Shown here one piece after another: positions 2,188 through 9,060 of a stretch of 64,000 nucleotides of DNA. How positions within the stretch are numbered: the stretch's first letter is position 1; each line of letters begins with the position of its first letter. A program made the translations under genes and the position numbers. Source of the DNA: Tsukamurella pulmonis (GTDB taxonomy: Bacteria > Actinomycetota > Actinomycetes > Mycobacteriales > Mycobacteriaceae); NCBI RefSeq assembly GCF_900103175.1, contig NZ_FNLF01000002.1, forward strand, positions 992,001 through 1,056,000. Reading direction: 5' to 3'. A model generated the notes under the pieces. That model was given only the letters and a program-made list of their open reading frames with translations. It did not search any database and was not told where the DNA came from.

Positions 2188-2203
2188 CGGCGCACCGCCG
2201 CAC

Positions 2204-2225
2204 CGCCGCACTCGGTGGTGCGGCG
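2204..2225. terminator. Stem-loop between convergent genes
   Basis: CGCCGCAC and GTGCGGCG form an 8-bp stem around a short loop, between the epimerase stop (2187) and the TetR stop (2230). There is no T-run, as is usual in high-GC actinobacteria. It could serve both strands. Confidence 0.45.
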
Positions 2226-2229
2226 GGCG

Positions 2230-2778
2230 CTATTCGTCGTCGAGCGGGCTCAGGATGCTCGCGATCAGGCGATCGAGGGACTCCGGGGTCAGCGGTGAGC
2301 TCAGGACGCTCTGGTACGCCCAGGAACCGTCGGCGGCCATGCGGGCGGTGAGGCAGCGCAGCGCGAGCTCGTCGAGCTCGCTCGGCGAGCGCTCTTCCTC
2401 GGGGAACCAGCGCCGGTACACCCGCTCCCACGGGGTGATCCAGTCGGGCTCGTTCCCCGCCTCGAGGATGAGCCGCATCTCCACCGTGCTCGCCGATCGC
2501 AGCATCGCGCGCACGTAGCCGCGCGTGCGCTCGACGAGGCTCGCATCCTCCGGTTCGCGTCCGGTCTCCGCGATCAGGACCGCTTCGGTCCGCGCCGCCA
2601 GCTCCTCGTGGATCCCGGTGACCAGCGCGTGCTTGGTGGGGAAGTGGTAGATGAGCCCCCGCTTGGTGACCCCGGCCTGCGCGGCCACCGCATCGAGCGT
2701 GAGTGCGGTGACGCCGTGTTCCTCCACCACCGTCAGGGCGGCCTCGATCATCTTCGGTCGTGCGCTCGGTCGTGCCAT
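2230..2778 (-). CDS. TetR-family transcriptional regulator
   Basis: This is a 182-residue protein. Residues 8-55 form the TetR helix-turn-helix: MIEAALTVVEEHGVTALTLD, then VAAQAGVTKRGLIYHFPTKH. The C-terminal ligand-binding region is alpha-helical and unspecific. The gene is divergent from the MFS-TGT fusion gene with an 84-bp gap containing inverted repeats. By the usual TetR-efflux arrangement, it probably represses both genes and responds to a transporter substrate (inference). The ATG at 2778 gives the expected short tail before the DNA-binding domain. Confidence 0.85.
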   Translation of the reverse strand: MARPSARPKMIEAALTVVEEHGVTALTLDAVAAQAGVTKRGLIYHFPTKHALVTGIHEELAARTEAVLIAETGREPEDASLVERTRGYVRAMLRSASTVEMRLILEAGNEPDWITPWERVYRRWFPEEERSPSELDELALRCLTARMAADGSWAYQSVLSSPLTPESLDRLIASILSPLDDE

Positions 2779-2814
2779 GTCTTCTCTCCTGCCGTCGGTT
2801 ATTAGTATACGTGA

Positions 2815-2847
2815 CGGTGTAGTACACTACTTGGTGAAGTTACACCG
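2815..2847. promoter_or_regulatory. Candidate TetR operator
   Basis: Nested inverted repeats lie between the divergent TetR and MFS-TGT genes. GTGTA-g-TACAC (2817-2827) sits inside a wider CGGTGTA ... TACACCG pair (2815-2821 and 2841-2847). The position between divergent starts suits a shared operator. The start of the fusion gene follows with a purine-rich ribosome-binding site (AGGAGAAGGA). Binding is inferred. Confidence 0.4.
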
Positions 2848-2862
2848 ACAGGAGAAGGAATC

Positions 2863-5811
2863 ATGAACGGAACTGCCCCGCGGGCCACAACCCGCACCTG
2901 GGTGGGATTGGCGGTGCTGGTCCTACCGATGCTGCTCATCGCGATCGACGGCGTGGTGTTGATCTTCGCGCTCGCCGATATCGCAGAGGATCTGGAACCG
3001 ACCGGCGCGCAACAGCTCTGGATCCTGGACATCTACTCGCTGATGCTCGCGGGCCTGTTGATCACCATGTCGTCCCTGGGTGACCGATTCGGCCGGCGGA
3101 AGGTCCTCCTCGCCGGAGCGGTGATCTTCGCGGTCGCGTCGGTCTTCGGAGCGCTCTCGAGCGAACCGTGGATGCTGATCGCCTCCCGCGCGCTGCTCGG
3201 CGTCGGCGGCGCGATGATCATGCCGGGAACGCTCTCGCTGATCCGCAACATGTTCCTCGACCGCGATCAGCGCCGTACCGCGATGGCGGTGTGGTCCGCG
3301 TCGGGCGCGCTCGGCGCGGCCGCGGGTCCGATCGTCGGCGGCTGGCTGATCGAGGCCTTCACCTGGCACGCGATCTTCCTGATGAACATCCCCGTCATGG
3401 TGCTGCTGCTCATCCTCGCCCCGATCCTGGTGCCGGAGAGCAGGAACCCGAACCCGGGCCGCATCGACCCGCTCAGCATCGTGCTCTCGCTGGTCGGCAT
3501 GATCTCGTTCGTCTACGGCGTCAAGACCTTCGCCGAGGGCGACGAGCCCCGGATCGCGCTCATCACCTTCGTCGCGGGCCTGGTCCTGCTGGTGCTGTTC
3601 GTGATCCGCCAGCTCAAGATGCCGGTCCCGATGCTCAACGTCCGCCTCTTCCGCAGCCGCTCCTTCGCGGGCGCGGTCGTCATCGACTTCCTCTCGGTCT
3701 TCGCGCTGGTCGGCGCCATGTTCGCCCTGACCCAGTTCCTGCAGCTCGTCGCGGGGCTGAGCATCATGAAGTCGGCGCTGTGGATGTTGCCGCAGGCCGG
3801 TATGTCCGCCTGCGCCGGGTTCATCGCCGCGGCCCTGGTCAAGCGCTTCCCCACGTCGATCATCGTCGCCATCGGCGGCGCCATCACCGCCGGCGGCTTC
3901 TCGATGCTGCTCACCCTCAGCCCCGACACCGAGCCGTGGTTCATCGCCATCGCCCTGGCGCTCGTCGGACTCGGTGCGGGCGTCGGCATGACGCTCACCA
4001 ACGACATCATCATGAGCTCGGTGCGTCCCGAGGAGTCGGGCCAGGCCGCCGGTATCAGCGAGACCGCCTACGAACTCGGTACCGCGTTCGGCACCGCCAT
4101 CCTCGGCTCGGTGCTGCTCGGCTTCTACCGCAACGGCCTCGACGACAAGGCCCCGTCGGGCCTGCCGGACGGCGTGCTGGACTCCGCCAAGGAGACCCTC
4201 GCCGCCGCGCTGCTGCACGCCCGCGAGCTGCCCTCGGACATCGGCGCGGCGCTCTACACCGCGGCCACGGAGTCGTTCACCAGTGCGCTGTCCTGGACCG
4301 GCGGCATCGGCGCCGCCATCCTGCTCGCGGTGGCGATCTTCGCCGCGGTGATGCTCCGCGGCGTCTCCGCGCAGCAGGACCTCACCAAGGACCCGCACGG
4401 CGACGACTCCGACGCCGGGCACGGACCGGACGAAGCGGACGAGAAGCTCGCCCCCACGACCCCGCCGGCCATCACGGACACCGTGGAGATCGCTCCCGTG
4501 CAGCGCGCGGACCTCGCCGGTGCCGCGACGGCGGAGCCGGGGACGATGCCGGCCCGCGCGTCCGGGGCCTCGCTCACCCGGCGCGAGATCGACGAGATCC
4601 GGGCGCAGAACGCCTCCCTGGCAGCGGAACTCGCCGACCTGCGCACCGACTACCGCGCGATCGCCGGGAATGCTCGGCTGCAGGCCTCGGGGATCACCGA
4701 TCCGGCCGAGTTCGTGATCGAGCGGACGGCGCCGACCGGGGCGCGTGCCGGTCGGATCGTGCTGCCACACGGTGAGATCGTGACCCCCGCCTACCTCCCC
4801 GTGGCCGGTCGCGGCGCCGTCGCCGGACTCACTCCGCACGAGCTGACCGACCTCGGCGCGCAGGCGCTGGCCGTCGACCTGCACGAGCTGTTCCTGCAGC
4901 CCGGACCGGACCTCATCGAGGGCGCCGGGGGGATCGGCCGGGTGATGGCGTGGTCGGCGCCCGTCGTCGGCGACCCCGGGTTGTCGACGGTCGGACCGCG
5001 GCACGCCACCCGGATCACCGACGAGGGCATCGCTTTCCGCAGCCGAGTCGACGGTTCCTCGCACCACTGGTCGCCCGAGGATCCGGTGCGCCTCGCCCAC
5101 CGGATGGGCTGCGACATCACCTTCGCCCTGGCGGACCCGACGGACCCGGTCCGCACCGAGCGCTGGGCGCGCCGGGCGCTCGCCGAGCGGGGCTGGCAGG
5201 CGGCCGACGGCAAGGACGCGCTCTCGCTCTGGGCGGTCGTGACGGGCGACGGCGACCCGGAGACCCGACGGTCCGCCGCACGCGGGCTCCGGCGGATCGC
5301 CGACGAGGACCGTCGCGCAGGGGGACTGGGCTTCGGCGGCTACCGGTTCGAGGGCGCGAGCGCCCTGTCGGGCGCCATCGCCGAGCTCGAGGCCGACCGT
5401 CCCCGCTACCTCGCGGCGGTCACCGGGCCGGCGGAGCTGCTCGCGGCGATCGAGGCCGGCGTCGACCTCATCGACGGGACCGCGCCGGCCCGCGCCGCGG
5501 AGCAGGGGCACGTCTTCACCACCGACGGAGTGCTCGACCTCACCGATCCGGCGCTGCGCGAGGACTTCCGGCCGCTCGATCCGAACGGTCGCCGCGTGCT
5601 CGGCGCCCACCGCACCGACGGATTCACCCGGGCGTACGTGCACCACCTGTTCGCCGCGAACGAGGGGTTGGCGGTGACGCTGTGCACCGCGCACAACGAG
5701 CACTTCTTCGTCGCCCTCGCCGCCGCCGCCCGGGAGGCCATCCGCAACGGCACGTACCCGCGGTTCGCCGAGAGCGTCCTCCGCGGCGCCGGTGGGGAAC
5801 TGGTCTCCTGA
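2863..5811 (+). CDS. DHA2-type MFS transporter fused to tRNA-guanine transglycosylase-like domain
   Basis: One uninterrupted frame gives 982 residues. Residues 1 to about 510 are a 14-helix drug:H+ antiporter: motif A is GDRFGRRK near 72-79 and motif C is SGALGAAAGPIVGG near 145-158. A charged acidic linker follows, then a short coiled coil (DEIRAQNASLAAELADLRTD). Residues about 617-980 resemble tRNA-guanine transglycosylase, with RIVLPHGEIVTPAYLPV, GLTPHELTDLGAQ, FRSRVDGSSH, FTTDG, FRPLDP and a C-terminal AHNEHFF. The nucleophile-equivalent aspartate is present (D871 in VDLIDGTAPAR). Three of the four zinc ligands are replaced (G909, R911 and G914 where cysteines are expected; H944 remains), and the base-recognition GGFQ and GIVQGG motifs are lost. 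Queuine-type base exchange is therefore doubtful. The fused domain would face the cytoplasm. An internal start near the linker cannot be excluded. Confidence 0.85.
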   Translation: MNGTAPRATTRTWVGLAVLVLPMLLIAIDGVVLIFALADIAEDLEPTGAQQLWILDIYSLMLAGLLITMSSLGDRFGRRKVLLAGAVIFAVASVFGALSSEPWMLIASRALLGVGGAMIMPGTLSLIRNMFLDRDQRRTAMAVWSASGALGAAAGPIVGGWLIEAFTWHAIFLMNIPVMVLLLILAPILVPESRNPNPGRIDPLSIVLSLVGMISFVYGVKTFAEGDEPRIALITFVAGLVLLVLFVIRQLKMPVPMLNVRLFRSRSFAGAVVIDFLSVFALVGAMFALTQFLQLVAGLSIMKSALWMLPQAGMSACAGFIAAALVKRFPTSIIVAIGGAITAGGFSMLLTLSPDTEPWFIAIALALVGLGAGVGMTLTNDIIMSSVRPEESGQAAGISETAYELGTAFGTAILGSVLLGFYRNGLDDKAPSGLPDGVLDSAKETLAAALLHARELPSDIGAALYTAATESFTSALSWTGGIGAAILLAVAIFAAVMLRGVSAQQDLTKDPHGDDSDAGHGPDEADEKLAPTTPPAITDTVEIAPVQRADLAGAATAEPGTMPARASGASLTRREIDEIRAQNASLAAELADLRTDYRAIAGNARLQASGITDPAEFVIERTAPTGARAGRIVLPHGEIVTPAYLPVAGRGAVAGLTPHELTDLGAQALAVDLHELFLQPGPDLIEGAGGIGRVMAWSAPVVGDPGLSTVGPRHATRITDEGIAFRSRVDGSSHHWSPEDPVRLAHRMGCDITFALADPTDPVRTERWARRALAERGWQAADGKDALSLWAVVTGDGDPETRRSAARGLRRIADEDRRAGGLGFGGYRFEGASALSGAIAELEADRPRYLAAVTGPAELLAAIEAGVDLIDGTAPARAAEQGHVFTTDGVLDLTDPALREDFRPLDPNGRRVLGAHRTDGFTRAYVHHLFAANEGLAVTLCTAHNEHFFVALAAAAREAIRNGTYPRFAESVLRGAGGELVS

Positions 5812-5828
5812 TCCGACCCGGGACGAGC

Positions 5829-5859
5829 AGGGGAGCACGGCGGAACGCCGTGCTCCCCT
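5829..5859. terminator. Strong bidirectional terminator hairpin
   Basis: AGGGGAGCACGGCG, loop GAA, CGCCGTGCTCCCCT forms a perfect 14-bp stem. It lies between the convergent stops at 5811 and 5897 and could end transcripts from both sides. Confidence 0.75.
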
Positions 5860-5896
5860 CGCCCGTTCCCGCCGCGGCCGTCACCCGGGCCCGCGA

Positions 5897-7405
5897 TCAC
5901 ACCTCCCAGGTGTGCACCGGGTTCCCCTCGTGCATCAGCTGCACGTAGTCGGCGAGCATGCCGCGCAGCGCCCGGTCGCGGGACTCGCCCGCGGCTTCCC
6001 TGGCCGCGACGGCCTGCCGCTGCCAGGACGAGCCCGTCTGCCGCTGGATGCAGCGGCCCTCGAGGATCTGCATGTACCGCTCGCGCGACTTCGAGCCCAC
6101 GCCATAGGCTTTCAGGCCGCTGTCCATGAGCGGCAACAGGCGGCGCAGCACCAGCTCGTCGGGCCGGATCCAGCCCACGTTCGGCCAGTACAGGCCGGCG
6201 TCGAAGGCGTCGCGGGCGCCGGAGTGCAGGTTCTCGGTGGCGGCGTCGAAGCTCATCTGCGTCCAGATCGGGCGGTCGGCCTCCACCAGCGCCCGGACCA
6301 CGCCGTAGTAGAAGGCGGCGTTCGCCATGGTGTCCACCACCGTCGGGCCGGCGGGCAGCACTCGGTTCTCCACGCGCAGGTGCGCGTGCCCGTCGACCAC
6401 GTCGTAGACCGGGCGGTTCCAGCGGTAGACGGTGCCGTTGTGCATCCGCAGCTCGGGCAGCTCGGGGGACTCGCCGCGCGAGACCACCTCGAGGGGGTCG
6501 ACGTCGCTGCACACCGGCAGCAGCGCGGGGAAGTAGCGGGTGTTCTCCTCGAAGAGGTCGAACGTGGAGGTGATCCACCGCTCCCCGAACCAGACCCGGG
6601 GCCGCACGCCCTGATTGCGCAGCTCGATGGGGCGGGTGTCGGTGGCCTGCTCGAACAGCGGGATGCGGGTCTCGTGCCACAGCGCCTTCCCGGCGAGGAA
6701 GGGCGAGTTCGCGGCGATCGCCACCTGCACGCCCGCGATGGCCTGCGCCGCGTTCCAGTGCGCCGCGAAGTCCTCCGGTGCCACCCGCAGGTGCAGCTGC
6801 AGCGACGTGCACGCCGCCTCGGGAAGGATCGTGTCGGAGGTGATGTCCAGGCGCTCGCCGACCACCGCGCCGGGGAGCGGGGCGCCCTCGATGTCGATTT
6901 CGATGTCCTCGCCGCGGGCCGCGAAGACCTGCTCGTTGAGCAGGTCGTAGCGGGGGTTGGCGGAGAACCACTGCTTGCCGAAGTGCTCCTCCTCGAGCGT
7001 GGGCAGCATGCCGATCATCACCAGGTTCGACCCCGCGGCGCGGGCGCGGTCGTCTGCGCGGTTGAGCGAGTCCCGCAGCGAGTCCTCGAGGTTCTCCGTG
7101 CTCTGATCGACGAACGGGCGCGGCGCCACGTTGATCTCGATGTTGAACTGGCCCAGCTCGGTCTGGAAGTCGGGGTCCGCGATGGCGTCGAGCGCCTCGG
7201 CGTTCGCCATGGCCGGAGCCATCTCGTCGTCGACGAGGTTGAGCTCGACCTCCATGCCCAGCAGCGGTTCCGGCGGCGCACCGTCGTCCGTGAACAGGCC
7301 CTCGGCCAGCATGCGGGCGATGGCGTCCGTACCGCGCTGGACCTGGCGGCGGAACCGCATGCGGTCCTCGCGCGTGAACACCCTGGCATCGACATCGGCA
7401 CCCAT
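5897..7405 (-). CDS. Glutamate-cysteine-ligase-like carboxylate-amine ligase
   Basis: The product has about 502 residues and belongs to the GCS2-type carboxylate-amine ligase superfamily. PLLGMEVELNLVD is the conserved ATP/metal-binding strand. Further conserved stretches are FNIEINVAPRPF, TSLQLHLRV and IAANSPFLAGKALWHETR. It is larger than the approximately 430-residue ergothioneine enzyme EgtA and does not look like it. Mycothiol organisms do not need glutathione, so the amine acceptor is unknown. I chose the ATG at 7405 (MGADVDARVFTREDRMRFRR); an in-frame start at 7471 would add 22 poorly conserved-looking residues. The gene is divergent from the secreted protein gene at 7546. Confidence 0.75.
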   Translation of the reverse strand: MGADVDARVFTREDRMRFRRQVQRGTDAIARMLAEGLFTDDGAPPEPLLGMEVELNLVDDEMAPAMANAEALDAIADPDFQTELGQFNIEINVAPRPFVDQSTENLEDSLRDSLNRADDRARAAGSNLVMIGMLPTLEEEHFGKQWFSANPRYDLLNEQVFAARGEDIEIDIEGAPLPGAVVGERLDITSDTILPEAACTSLQLHLRVAPEDFAAHWNAAQAIAGVQVAIAANSPFLAGKALWHETRIPLFEQATDTRPIELRNQGVRPRVWFGERWITSTFDLFEENTRYFPALLPVCSDVDPLEVVSRGESPELPELRMHNGTVYRWNRPVYDVVDGHAHLRVENRVLPAGPTVVDTMANAAFYYGVVRALVEADRPIWTQMSFDAATENLHSGARDAFDAGLYWPNVGWIRPDELVLRRLLPLMDSGLKAYGVGSKSRERYMQILEGRCIQRQTGSSWQRQAVAAREAAGESRDRALRGMLADYVQLMHEGNPVHTWEV

Positions 7406-7545
7406 GGCTCGCAGCTTGGCAGAACCGCCGCGCGGCGCGGGCCGGATTCCGGGCACCGGGATCGAATTCACGATTGCAACGTCGTTCGCTACAGTGGCAC
7501 CGCGAACAGTGCCTTCGGCGCTGCAGATCCCCGAGGAGAACCCAC

Positions 7546-8262
7546 GTGCGTACCGTCCGCAACACCCTGGCCATCGGCGCCGCCGTCGTCGCCCTCGTCG
7601 CCCCCGCGGCCATCGCCCAGGCTGACCCCGCCGGTGCGCCGACGACCCCCGTCGACGAGCTGCTGCTCGCCGACGGCGAGTTCCCCGCCGGCTACGAGGT
7701 GATGCCGCTCTCCGTGGCCGAGCGCCTCGAGATGATCGCGCCGCTGAACCAGTTCGCGAAGAACATGAAGGTCACGCCCGCCGAGTGCGCCCCGAAGGTC
7801 ACCCCTGCGCTGTCGCAGAAGGCGAGCGACCTGCCGATGGTCAGCGCGTTCAGCGATCGCACCGCCACCGGCCTGGTCGAGGTGATCTCGCCGCGTCCCG
7901 TCGGGACCAACGCCGACATGCTGCGCAACTGCAGCGACGTCACCGTCGAGCTGGCGCCCAACGAGCAGGTGCCGGCGACCGCGCACATCACCATCAAGGT
8001 CACGCGGACCTCGGTGCCCGGCGTCCCCGCCGGCGCGATGGTGATCGCCACGCAGGGCACGGGCACGGTCACCGTCTCCGGGAAGGACGGCAAGCCCGGC
8101 AAGGAGCGCAAGGTCAACGTCAACCAGATCGAGGGCGTCTCGCAGGTGCGGGGCCTGACCGTGGTGGTCACGGCCTCCGGCTCGCAGGGCGGGCGCCTCG
8201 ATCGGGCCGCGTTCGCGCAGACGCTGACCAAGGCCGTCGACAAGGTGCGCGCGGCCCAGTAG
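7546..8262 (+). CDS. Secreted protein, first of a tandem paralogous pair
   Basis: The product has 238 residues from a GTG start preceded by GAGGAGAA. Residues 1 to about 27 are a Sec signal peptide (MRTVRNTLAIGAAVVALVAP, then AIAQA). The mature part opens with PVDELLLADGEFPAGYEV and has two cysteines positioned like those of its neighbour (PAECAPKV and LRNCSD), suggesting a disulfide outside the cell. The next gene encodes a paralogue sharing the LLL-x2-G-x-FPAGY motif and overall length. I do not recognise a characterised family. It may be a mycolate-lineage cell-envelope protein. Confidence 0.75.
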   Translation: MRTVRNTLAIGAAVVALVAPAAIAQADPAGAPTTPVDELLLADGEFPAGYEVMPLSVAERLEMIAPLNQFAKNMKVTPAECAPKVTPALSQKASDLPMVSAFSDRTATGLVEVISPRPVGTNADMLRNCSDVTVELAPNEQVPATAHITIKVTRTSVPGVPAGAMVIATQGTGTVTVSGKDGKPGKERKVNVNQIEGVSQVRGLTVVVTASGSQGGRLDRAAFAQTLTKAVDKVRAAQ

Positions 8263-8364
8263 CGCGCTCCGTCCGTTCCCTAGCGGGCTGTCGGGTGTTC
8301 ACCTGTGGTCATGTGCGATGAACTATTCTTGACGCGATTCCGTTCACCGACGTCAGGATTTCTC

Positions 8365-9060
8365 ATGCGCGTGATCCGCCGCTCCGCTCTCGTCCTCGCC
8401 GCCGTCGCCGCGCTCGCCGTTCCCGCGGGCGTCGCGTCCGCCGCTCCGGCCAAGCCCGCCACCCCGGCCGCGCAACTGCTGCTCACGCAGGGCGACTTCC
8501 CCGCGGGGTACAAGGTCGAGAAGCTCTCGCAGTCGGAGCTCACCGAGCTGACGTCCGGCCTCGGCGACGTCTTCGCCAGCGCCAAGGCGACGCCCGCGCA
8601 CTGCCTCCCGGTCGTGACCCGCGGCGCCCTCGCCGAGGCGGCGGGACTGCCGATGGTGGTCGCGGTGAACGAGGCCAAGCGCACCGCGGTCTCCGAGGTG
8701 ATCACGTCGAAGAGCGCCGACGCGGCGGTCGGCGTGACCCCCGGGTGCGAGAAGGTGCGGATGGAGACCGCCGTCGGCGCCAACGGACGCATCGTGATGG
8801 ACGTCACGACCACCCCCGTTACGCTGCCCGGCGCCCCCGCGGGCGCGAAGACGGTGCTCGTCCGGTCGACCGGCACCGCGACCGTCGACGGCGAGACGCA
8901 GCCGATCCGCCAGGAGCAGATCATGGGCGCGCAGGACGTGCGCGGCTACGGCGTGCTCGTCGTGGGCAACGCCGTCGGCGAGAACGGCGCGACCGTCGAT
9001 CGGGCCGGCTACGCGCGCATCCTCACCGCGGCCACCGACAAGGTGCGCACCGCGAAGTAG
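8365..9060 (+). CDS. Secreted protein, second of a tandem paralogous pair
   Basis: The product has 231 residues. Residues 1 to about 27 form a signal peptide (MRVIRRSALVLAAVAALAVP, then AGVASA). QLLLTQGDFPAGYKVEKLSQ matches the upstream paralogue, as do the paired cysteines (PAHCLPVV and TPGCEKV) and the C-terminal DRAGYARILTAATDKVRTAK. The ATG at 8365 follows AGGA at suitable spacing. The 102-bp gap to the first paralogue holds two GTTCACC copies and a TATTCT, so separate transcription is possible. The function is unknown. Confidence 0.75.
   Translation: MRVIRRSALVLAAVAALAVPAGVASAAPAKPATPAAQLLLTQGDFPAGYKVEKLSQSELTELTSGLGDVFASAKATPAHCLPVVTRGALAEAAGLPMVVAVNEAKRTAVSEVITSKSADAAVGVTPGCEKVRMETAVGANGRIVMDVTTTPVTLPGAPAGAKTVLVRSTGTATVDGETQPIRQEQIMGAQDVRGYGVLVVGNAVGENGATVDRAGYARILTAATDKVRTAK

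Follow-up and report, generated by a model that had tools for sequence, protein, structure and literature searches.

Fusions of a transporter to a bacterial tRNA-guanine transglycosylase (bTGT) have been described as unique to Tsukamurella, with Tpau_0550 (MFS) and Tpau_4044 (MMPL) as the published examples, and were collected as candidate transporters of queuosine precursors (Quaiyum 2024, PMC11130926, accessible portion). That portion of the paper does not treat active-site loss, a coiled coil or the spread of a module. Transporter–bTGT fusions in the genus are known already; in our literature search, in which PMC11130926 was the only paper on such fusions, we found no published account of the degeneracy pattern, the coil or the module spread, nor of the MmpL2, single MFS and LfrA-type forms, the mmpL–tgt ancestry or the cassette described below. 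In the bacterial TGT dimer one monomer catalyses and the other helps to place the tRNA (PMC5395182, partial text), a helper role that is not general, since the dimer of E. coli is reported to be capable of acting on two tRNAs (PMC13416341, partial text). In eukaryotic QTRT2, both catalytic Asp residues are replaced, by Cys and Glu (PMC6165067, partial text).

The window analysed here is a 64,000-nucleotide stretch of the Tsukamurella pulmonis genome in which positions 2863–5811 of the forward strand form a single 982-codon frame without a stop. From the reading frame and the Pfam and NCBIfam matches, the frame encodes an MFS exporter, a linker, a coiled coil and a pseudo-TGT domain, which bears out the architecture given in a preliminary description of this DNA. 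AGGAGAAGG at 2850–2858 precedes the ATG, and the third-position GC content is evenly high (0.86–1.00) along the transporter, linker and TGT parts. Residues 1–500 (2863–4362) are of the DHA2/LfrA–QacA type according to profile and relative matches. Pfam MFS_1 covers residues 24–411 (174 bits), the nearest NCBIfam families are LfrA, QepA, SmvA and QacA/B, and the best match of this part is NF033896 (LfrA efflux MFS), below its equivalog cut-off (442.6 versus 825 bits). The hydropathy profile does not resolve 14 helices; that number rests on kinship to QacA and LfrA. The best relatives among solved structures are, in turn, a QacA-type antiseptic resistance protein for residues 9–497 and TGTs for residues 612–971. 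Like the LfrA, QepA and QacA exporters, the window protein has a full-length MFS match and a divergent TetR gene, but it lies far below the LfrA cut-off (443 versus 825 bits) and has an added coil–TGT tail.

The transporter is followed by a linker recognized by its acidic, Ala/Pro-rich composition (residues 501–574; 4363–4584), by the coiled coil (residues 575–600; 4585–4662), identified from its heptad reading and conservation, and by the pseudo-TGT domain (residues 626–974; 4738–5784). The latter matches Pfam TGT (PF01702) over profile positions 2–353 of 357 with 232 bits (cut-off 26.3) and exceeds the cut-off of the TGT superfamily model TIGR00449 (204 versus 47.6 bits), but it falls short of the equivalog cut-off of TIGR00430 (tRNA guanosine(34) transglycosylase Tgt; 202.9 versus 306.75 bits). 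The profile matches confirm the TGT identity of the fused domain and, being nearly full length, agree at the level of sequence with the TGT fold proposed for it.

Four TGT genes (five matches, two of them in one gene) occur in the whole T. pulmonis genome, each in frame with a transporter: MmpL1–TGT (L001/L035), MFS-A–TGT (L003/L036), MmpL2–TGT (L004/L037) and the window gene. Pfam was run on L035, L037 and, from another genome, L059 as further transporter–TGT frames. A standalone TGT was not found in the T. pulmonis genome. A coil–TGT query matches 16/16 Tsukamurella genomes (in G007 only with a fragment of 62 residues where a contig ends); MmpL1–TGT and MFS-A–TGT are each present in 15 of the 16, and MmpL2–TGT in eight. 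The frames are open in every genome except G014, where they are split and where the assembly splits an unrelated gene too. An assembly artefact joining two genes, the possibility against which the preliminary description had advised a check, is untenable because three other in-frame fusions are present in the same genome and the coil–TGT query finds matches throughout the genus. The window fusion is real, and the survey across genomes places it as one of several forms. Going by genome position and the chromosome size of T. paurometabola, and not by sequence, Tpau_0550 and Tpau_4044 most probably correspond to the MFS-A and MmpL1 forms. The window protein shares genus and architecture with these published fusions (PMC11130926, accessible portion) but has a different, LfrA-type MFS.

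Clustering of the transporter halves at 50% identity gave MmpL1 (14), MFS-A (14) and MmpL2 (3) groups and two singletons, the window protein and L059 of G008; it took only frames in which the coil was found by pattern, which left out four MmpL2 frames. The window-type fusion is known from one genome only, and selection on it is therefore not directly measurable. LfrA-type homologues of its MFS part (49–50% identity) stand at places without a TGT match in 14/16 genomes of the genus, including its own, and MFS-A homologues without TGT (54–68% identity) are found in 8/12 other genomes of the family. No fusion was seen outside the genus: in a set of 45 genomes, 24 of which have TGT, every frame is 392–717 aa long, and in a set of 401, 375 of which match, no non-Tsukamurella frame among the matches listed exceeds 717 aa. 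Among the best 80 of 347 loci, the 22 Tsukamurella matches start at query residues 2–5 and no other starts before residue 22.

In T. tyrosinosolvens, two frames are continuous across transporter and TGT (L194, 2570–3817 of NZ_LR134453.1; L195, 5001–6386 of NZ_LR134445.1), and the gene table, which is incomplete in PLSDB, lets a separate tgt begin within the frame and lists no upstream transporter gene. Public annotation may hide fusions of this type. Such a gene model would also suit a TGT part that is released on its own, through an internal start or cleavage, as would the ATG that lies at the coil end in 13/14 MmpL1 frames. No Shine–Dalgarno sequence is evident before that ATG, however, and a start there would cut off the coil, the most constrained part of the protein. 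An internal start in the window linker is rejected, the in-frame starts there reaching at most 4/6 Shine–Dalgarno matches. We regard release of the TGT part as highly improbable.

The residues of the active site were compared in Zymomonas Tgt numbering. In the window protein, D704 (4972–4974) is the equivalent of D102 and is kept, A757 (5131–5133) replaces the base-binding D156, and D871 (5473–5475), the equivalent of the nucleophile D280, is kept. The alignment thus upholds the retention of D871 and the altered base pocket that had been noticed earlier, the changes being D156A, Q203T, S103P, loss of F106 and R289E. Of D102, S103, Y/F106, D156, Q203, G230 and D280, only D102, G230 and D280 are retained, so the protein lacks the Tgt residue set. 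Compared with Zymomonas and other bacterial Tgt proteins, it shares a near-full-length domain, the D102 and D280 equivalents and the C-terminal dimer region, but is fused to a transporter and is without D156, Q203, S103, Y/F106, R289, the zinc cysteines and, behind D102, a stretch of about 27 residues.

The same pattern holds for the MFS-A copies. Statistics were computed on 14 MFS-A rows plus the window; L058, the least degenerate MFS-A form, in which D156 is kept but residue 102 is Glu, was left out. In this set, position 156 is Ala in 15/15, S103, F106 and Q203 are gone in 15/15 and R289 in 14/15, and the roughly 27 residues that would follow D102 are missing; D102 and D280 are kept in 15/15 and G230 in 14. 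MmpL2–TGT (for example L037:6622–7809) has Glu at 280 in 7/8 copies and keeps D102. MmpL1–TGT keeps D102, S103, F106, D156, Q203, G230, D280, R286 and R289 in 15/15 copies and, as aligned, is the only intact-looking TGT of the genome.

All three zinc cysteines are absent from the window protein, as the preliminary description had indicated, but we reject their loss as a mark of degeneration because 8/21 standalone TGT relatives, the nearest ones among them, and all 15 MmpL–TGT copies lack them too. The eight standalone proteins (L018, L020, L021, L022, L023, L025, L029 and L034) keep every tabulated catalytic residue. By alignment these proteins are a zinc-less TGT lineage and the cysteine loss is older than the fusions; the real degeneration, read from the same residues, is the loss of D156, S103, F106, Q203, R289 and the segment of about 27 residues.

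To describe what has been retained, a background of 157 positions that are at least 97% invariant in 36 canonical rows was used. In all 15 rows (14 MFS-A plus the window) 62/157 of these positions are kept, and 58/157 are lost in all but at most one row. The retained positions are concentrated at Zymomonas 320–378, where 15/16 are kept in all rows compared with 47/141 elsewhere (Fisher p 3e-6). The TGT dimer hot spot includes W326, Y330 and H333, with F92 as the fourth residue (PMC5395182, partial text). The window equivalents of the first three are F921, Y925 and H928, the latter two within RAYVHHL (residues 923–929; 5629–5649), a kept part of the dimer region; an aromatic residue at 326, Y330 and H333 are present in 15/15 rows. 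F92 is Val or Ala, and substitutions at T47 and K52 affect the window and most or all MFS-A rows, so an ordinary symmetric TGT dimer is not obvious. MmpL2 keeps F92 in 7/8 copies but varies at 326. The conservation of the C-terminal region may reflect folding and not pairing.

The coil is the second well kept element. It has hydrophobic residues at a and d, an Asn at one a position and, at g and e, Glu and Arg that are for the most part conserved, and with its Asn it is common to 37/37 frames read; it is absent from the N-termini of standalone TGTs and from the MmpL proteins of relatives examined. A core Asn in a coiled coil favours parallel dimers, and the segment is probably a short parallel dimeric coiled coil. 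Selection was compared through dN/dS (median NG86, pairwise medians) for 13 MFS-A, 13 MmpL1 and six MmpL2 rows, without the divergent or split frames L057, L058, L071 and L072 and the short frames L046 and L052. The coil is the most constrained part (0.06–0.14 in all three families). Values for the TGT parts are 0.09 in MmpL1, 0.20 in MFS-A and 0.36 in MmpL2, which is weakly constrained; the transporters lie at 0.13–0.25 and the linkers of the orthologous families at 0.42–0.53.

These values bear on the view that the module is a passenger tail, carried by duplication or recombination and decaying without a function of its own. The weak constraint on the MmpL2 TGT, the 58 canonical positions lost almost throughout the 15 rows and the long branch of the window copy (0.38) are consistent with it. 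The MFS-A TGT part, however, is constrained nearly as strongly as its transporter part (0.17), the window TGT compared with its five nearest relatives gives 0.23–0.33, and the coil and the open frames described above argue in the same direction. We consider a passenger tail quite unlikely.

The preliminary description had proposed that the barrel senses a base-like ligand or carries out different chemistry. A barrel that binds such a ligand, or uses D102 and D280 on another substrate, and thereby controls the exporter would fit the retention of both Asp residues in all 15 rows, and regulation by TetR hints at an inducing compound. However, the residues that contact the base and form the lid are gone, and just two of seven catalytic and base positions persist in every row (G230 in 14), a rate that does not exceed the background of 62/157. 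The retained Asp residues stand, but the proposal drawn from them appears decidedly improbable: the catalytic set is kept at background level while the coil and the C-terminal region are the best kept parts, which points to docking or pairing.

The probable source of the module can be seen in related genera. Seven relatives were examined, and four of them have an mmpL frame (45–48% identity) upstream of a standalone tgt and in the same orientation; the two adjoin or overlap in two relatives and are separated by 0.1 kb in one and by about 1.9 kb in one. In a fifth (L080, 49%) the mmpL is further from tgt, and two of the seven have none. Williamsia and Jongsikchunia have mmpL upstream of standalone tgt. 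The MmpL proteins of the relatives end about where the Tsukamurella linker starts. Because mmpL adjoins tgt in relatives, MmpL ends at the linker start and both lack the coil, the neighbour pair most likely fused in the ancestor of Tsukamurella, gaining linker and coil, and the coil–TGT module was copied later; the origin from an mmpL–tgt pair is well supported. In the trees, L058 of Tsukamurella sp. 8F, an MFS-A form that is nearly canonical, groups with the degenerate forms. The window copy is nested in the MFS-A clade (11-row set, 99/89) and separate from the MFS-A copy of its own genome (8-row set, 97/92), and the placement of MmpL2 and L059 is unsure owing to long branches.

Profile searches found QueA in 0/16 and YhhQ in 16/16 Tsukamurella genomes; QueC gave only partial matches (profile positions 5–60) in 15/16, at 20.7–22.4 bits around the cut-off of 22. 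De novo queuosine synthesis in the genus is rejected on QueA and QueC, the search having covered neither QueD, QueE, QueF, QueG nor QueH. Since QueA is absent, QueC weak and partial and YhhQ universal, queuine salvage through MmpL1–TGT is likely and, as judged from gene content, well supported; most Actinomycetota of a gut set are predicted to salvage q (PMC11130926, accessible portion). The fusions could on this basis be queuosine-precursor transporters wired to TGT, with the transporter importing queuine or preQ1 for use by the attached or paired TGT. The salvage gene set agrees with this, as do the adjacency of mmpL and tgt in relatives and a Bartonella MFS beside tgt that transports preQ1/preQ0 (PMC11130926, accessible portion). 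On the other hand, YhhQ is already present, the window exporter is nearest to the drug exporters LfrA, QepA and QacA, and its TGT pocket lacks D156 and Q203. The sole MMPL tested, from Corynebacterium propinquum, showed no preQ1 transport, although expression problems are possible according to the authors (PMC11130926, accessible portion). For the window protein we regard such a transporter role as unlikely.

The fusion gene is accompanied by a divergent TetR-family regulator (2230–2778, reverse strand; PF00440 and PF17937), as previously described. The intergenic region (2779–2862) contains, besides AGGAGAAGG, a 10-nt inverted repeat (2812–2821/2841–2850), a possible operator candidate that may be due to chance. 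Together the two genes are an inserted cassette (2194–5892) between genes that closely neighbour each other in relatives. At 15 loci with the GCS2 neighbour in 14 other genomes, the DUF1731 gene is beside GCS2 in ten and the fusion is within the 1.5 kb flank in none; the GCS2–DUF1731 gap at nine measured loci is 12–19 bp (three) or 0.6–1.2 kb (six). The site between 2187 and 5897 is a variable spot between convergent genes (relatives L179–L188), empty in three relatives, occupied in L180 and L184 by a frame some 190 aa long and in the window by the TetR–fusion cassette. A plasmid copy of the cassette was sought and rejected, the best match being 72%. Inside the GCS2 gene, ARAGORN calls a tRNA-Gln (6556–6628, reverse strand) that is probably false, since scans of this gene in eight relatives found it in none. 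Further along, 7474–8262 and 8305–9060 (forward strand) encode neighbouring secreted-looking proteins, alike by eye and without a Pfam match.

Our preferred reading, held tentatively, sees in the window protein a drug-type exporter of the DHA2 group that carries a cytoplasmic docking module, formed by the short coiled coil and the pseudo-TGT barrel, which probably pairs with the active MmpL–TGT. An mmpL–tgt neighbour pair would have fused to give MmpL–TGT, and the module would have been copied to MFS-A, to a second MmpL and singly to an LfrA-type exporter. In these copies the base pocket would have degenerated, with the coil and the C-terminal surface for pairing preserved. The pseudo-TGT would pair through coil and barrel with the active MmpL–TGT, or with itself, in the manner of QTRT2 with QTRT1; this could keep the TGT that inserts queuine joined to the exporters at the membrane and could tune TGT activity or transport. 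We infer the pairing, the choice of partner and any effect on transport or tRNA from the conservation pattern and these parallels. The retention of D102 and D280 in all 15 rows, unneeded for pure docking, counts against the docking reading.

As with QTRT1 and QTRT2, an active TGT and a TGT-like partner candidate with a degenerate pocket occur within one organism, and at the nucleophile position MmpL2 shows the same Glu as QTRT2 (PMC6165067, partial text). QTRT2, however, is soluble and has lost both Asp residues, whereas the window copy keeps both and is fused to a transporter, and its pairing is conjectural. A further possibility, which we hold to be doubtful, is that a TGT of several subunits, held at the membrane, arose independently in Tsukamurella. 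A single active TGT, borne by MmpL, would be paired by way of the common coil and the barrel interface with pseudo-TGT subunits on MFS and MmpL exporters, and the pseudo-TGT would be a portable docking tag that brings further transporters, here an LfrA-type drug exporter controlled by TetR, to a centre of tRNA modification.

Two cautions follow for annotation: such fusions should not be taken simply for transporters of queuosine precursors, and the loss of zinc cysteines in actinobacterial TGTs is no sign of a dead enzyme. If the docking reading is true, membrane export would be physically linked to queuosine tRNA modification, bacteria would have a parallel to the eukaryotic pair of active and inactive TGTs, and an enzyme domain would have been turned into a transferable docking module.
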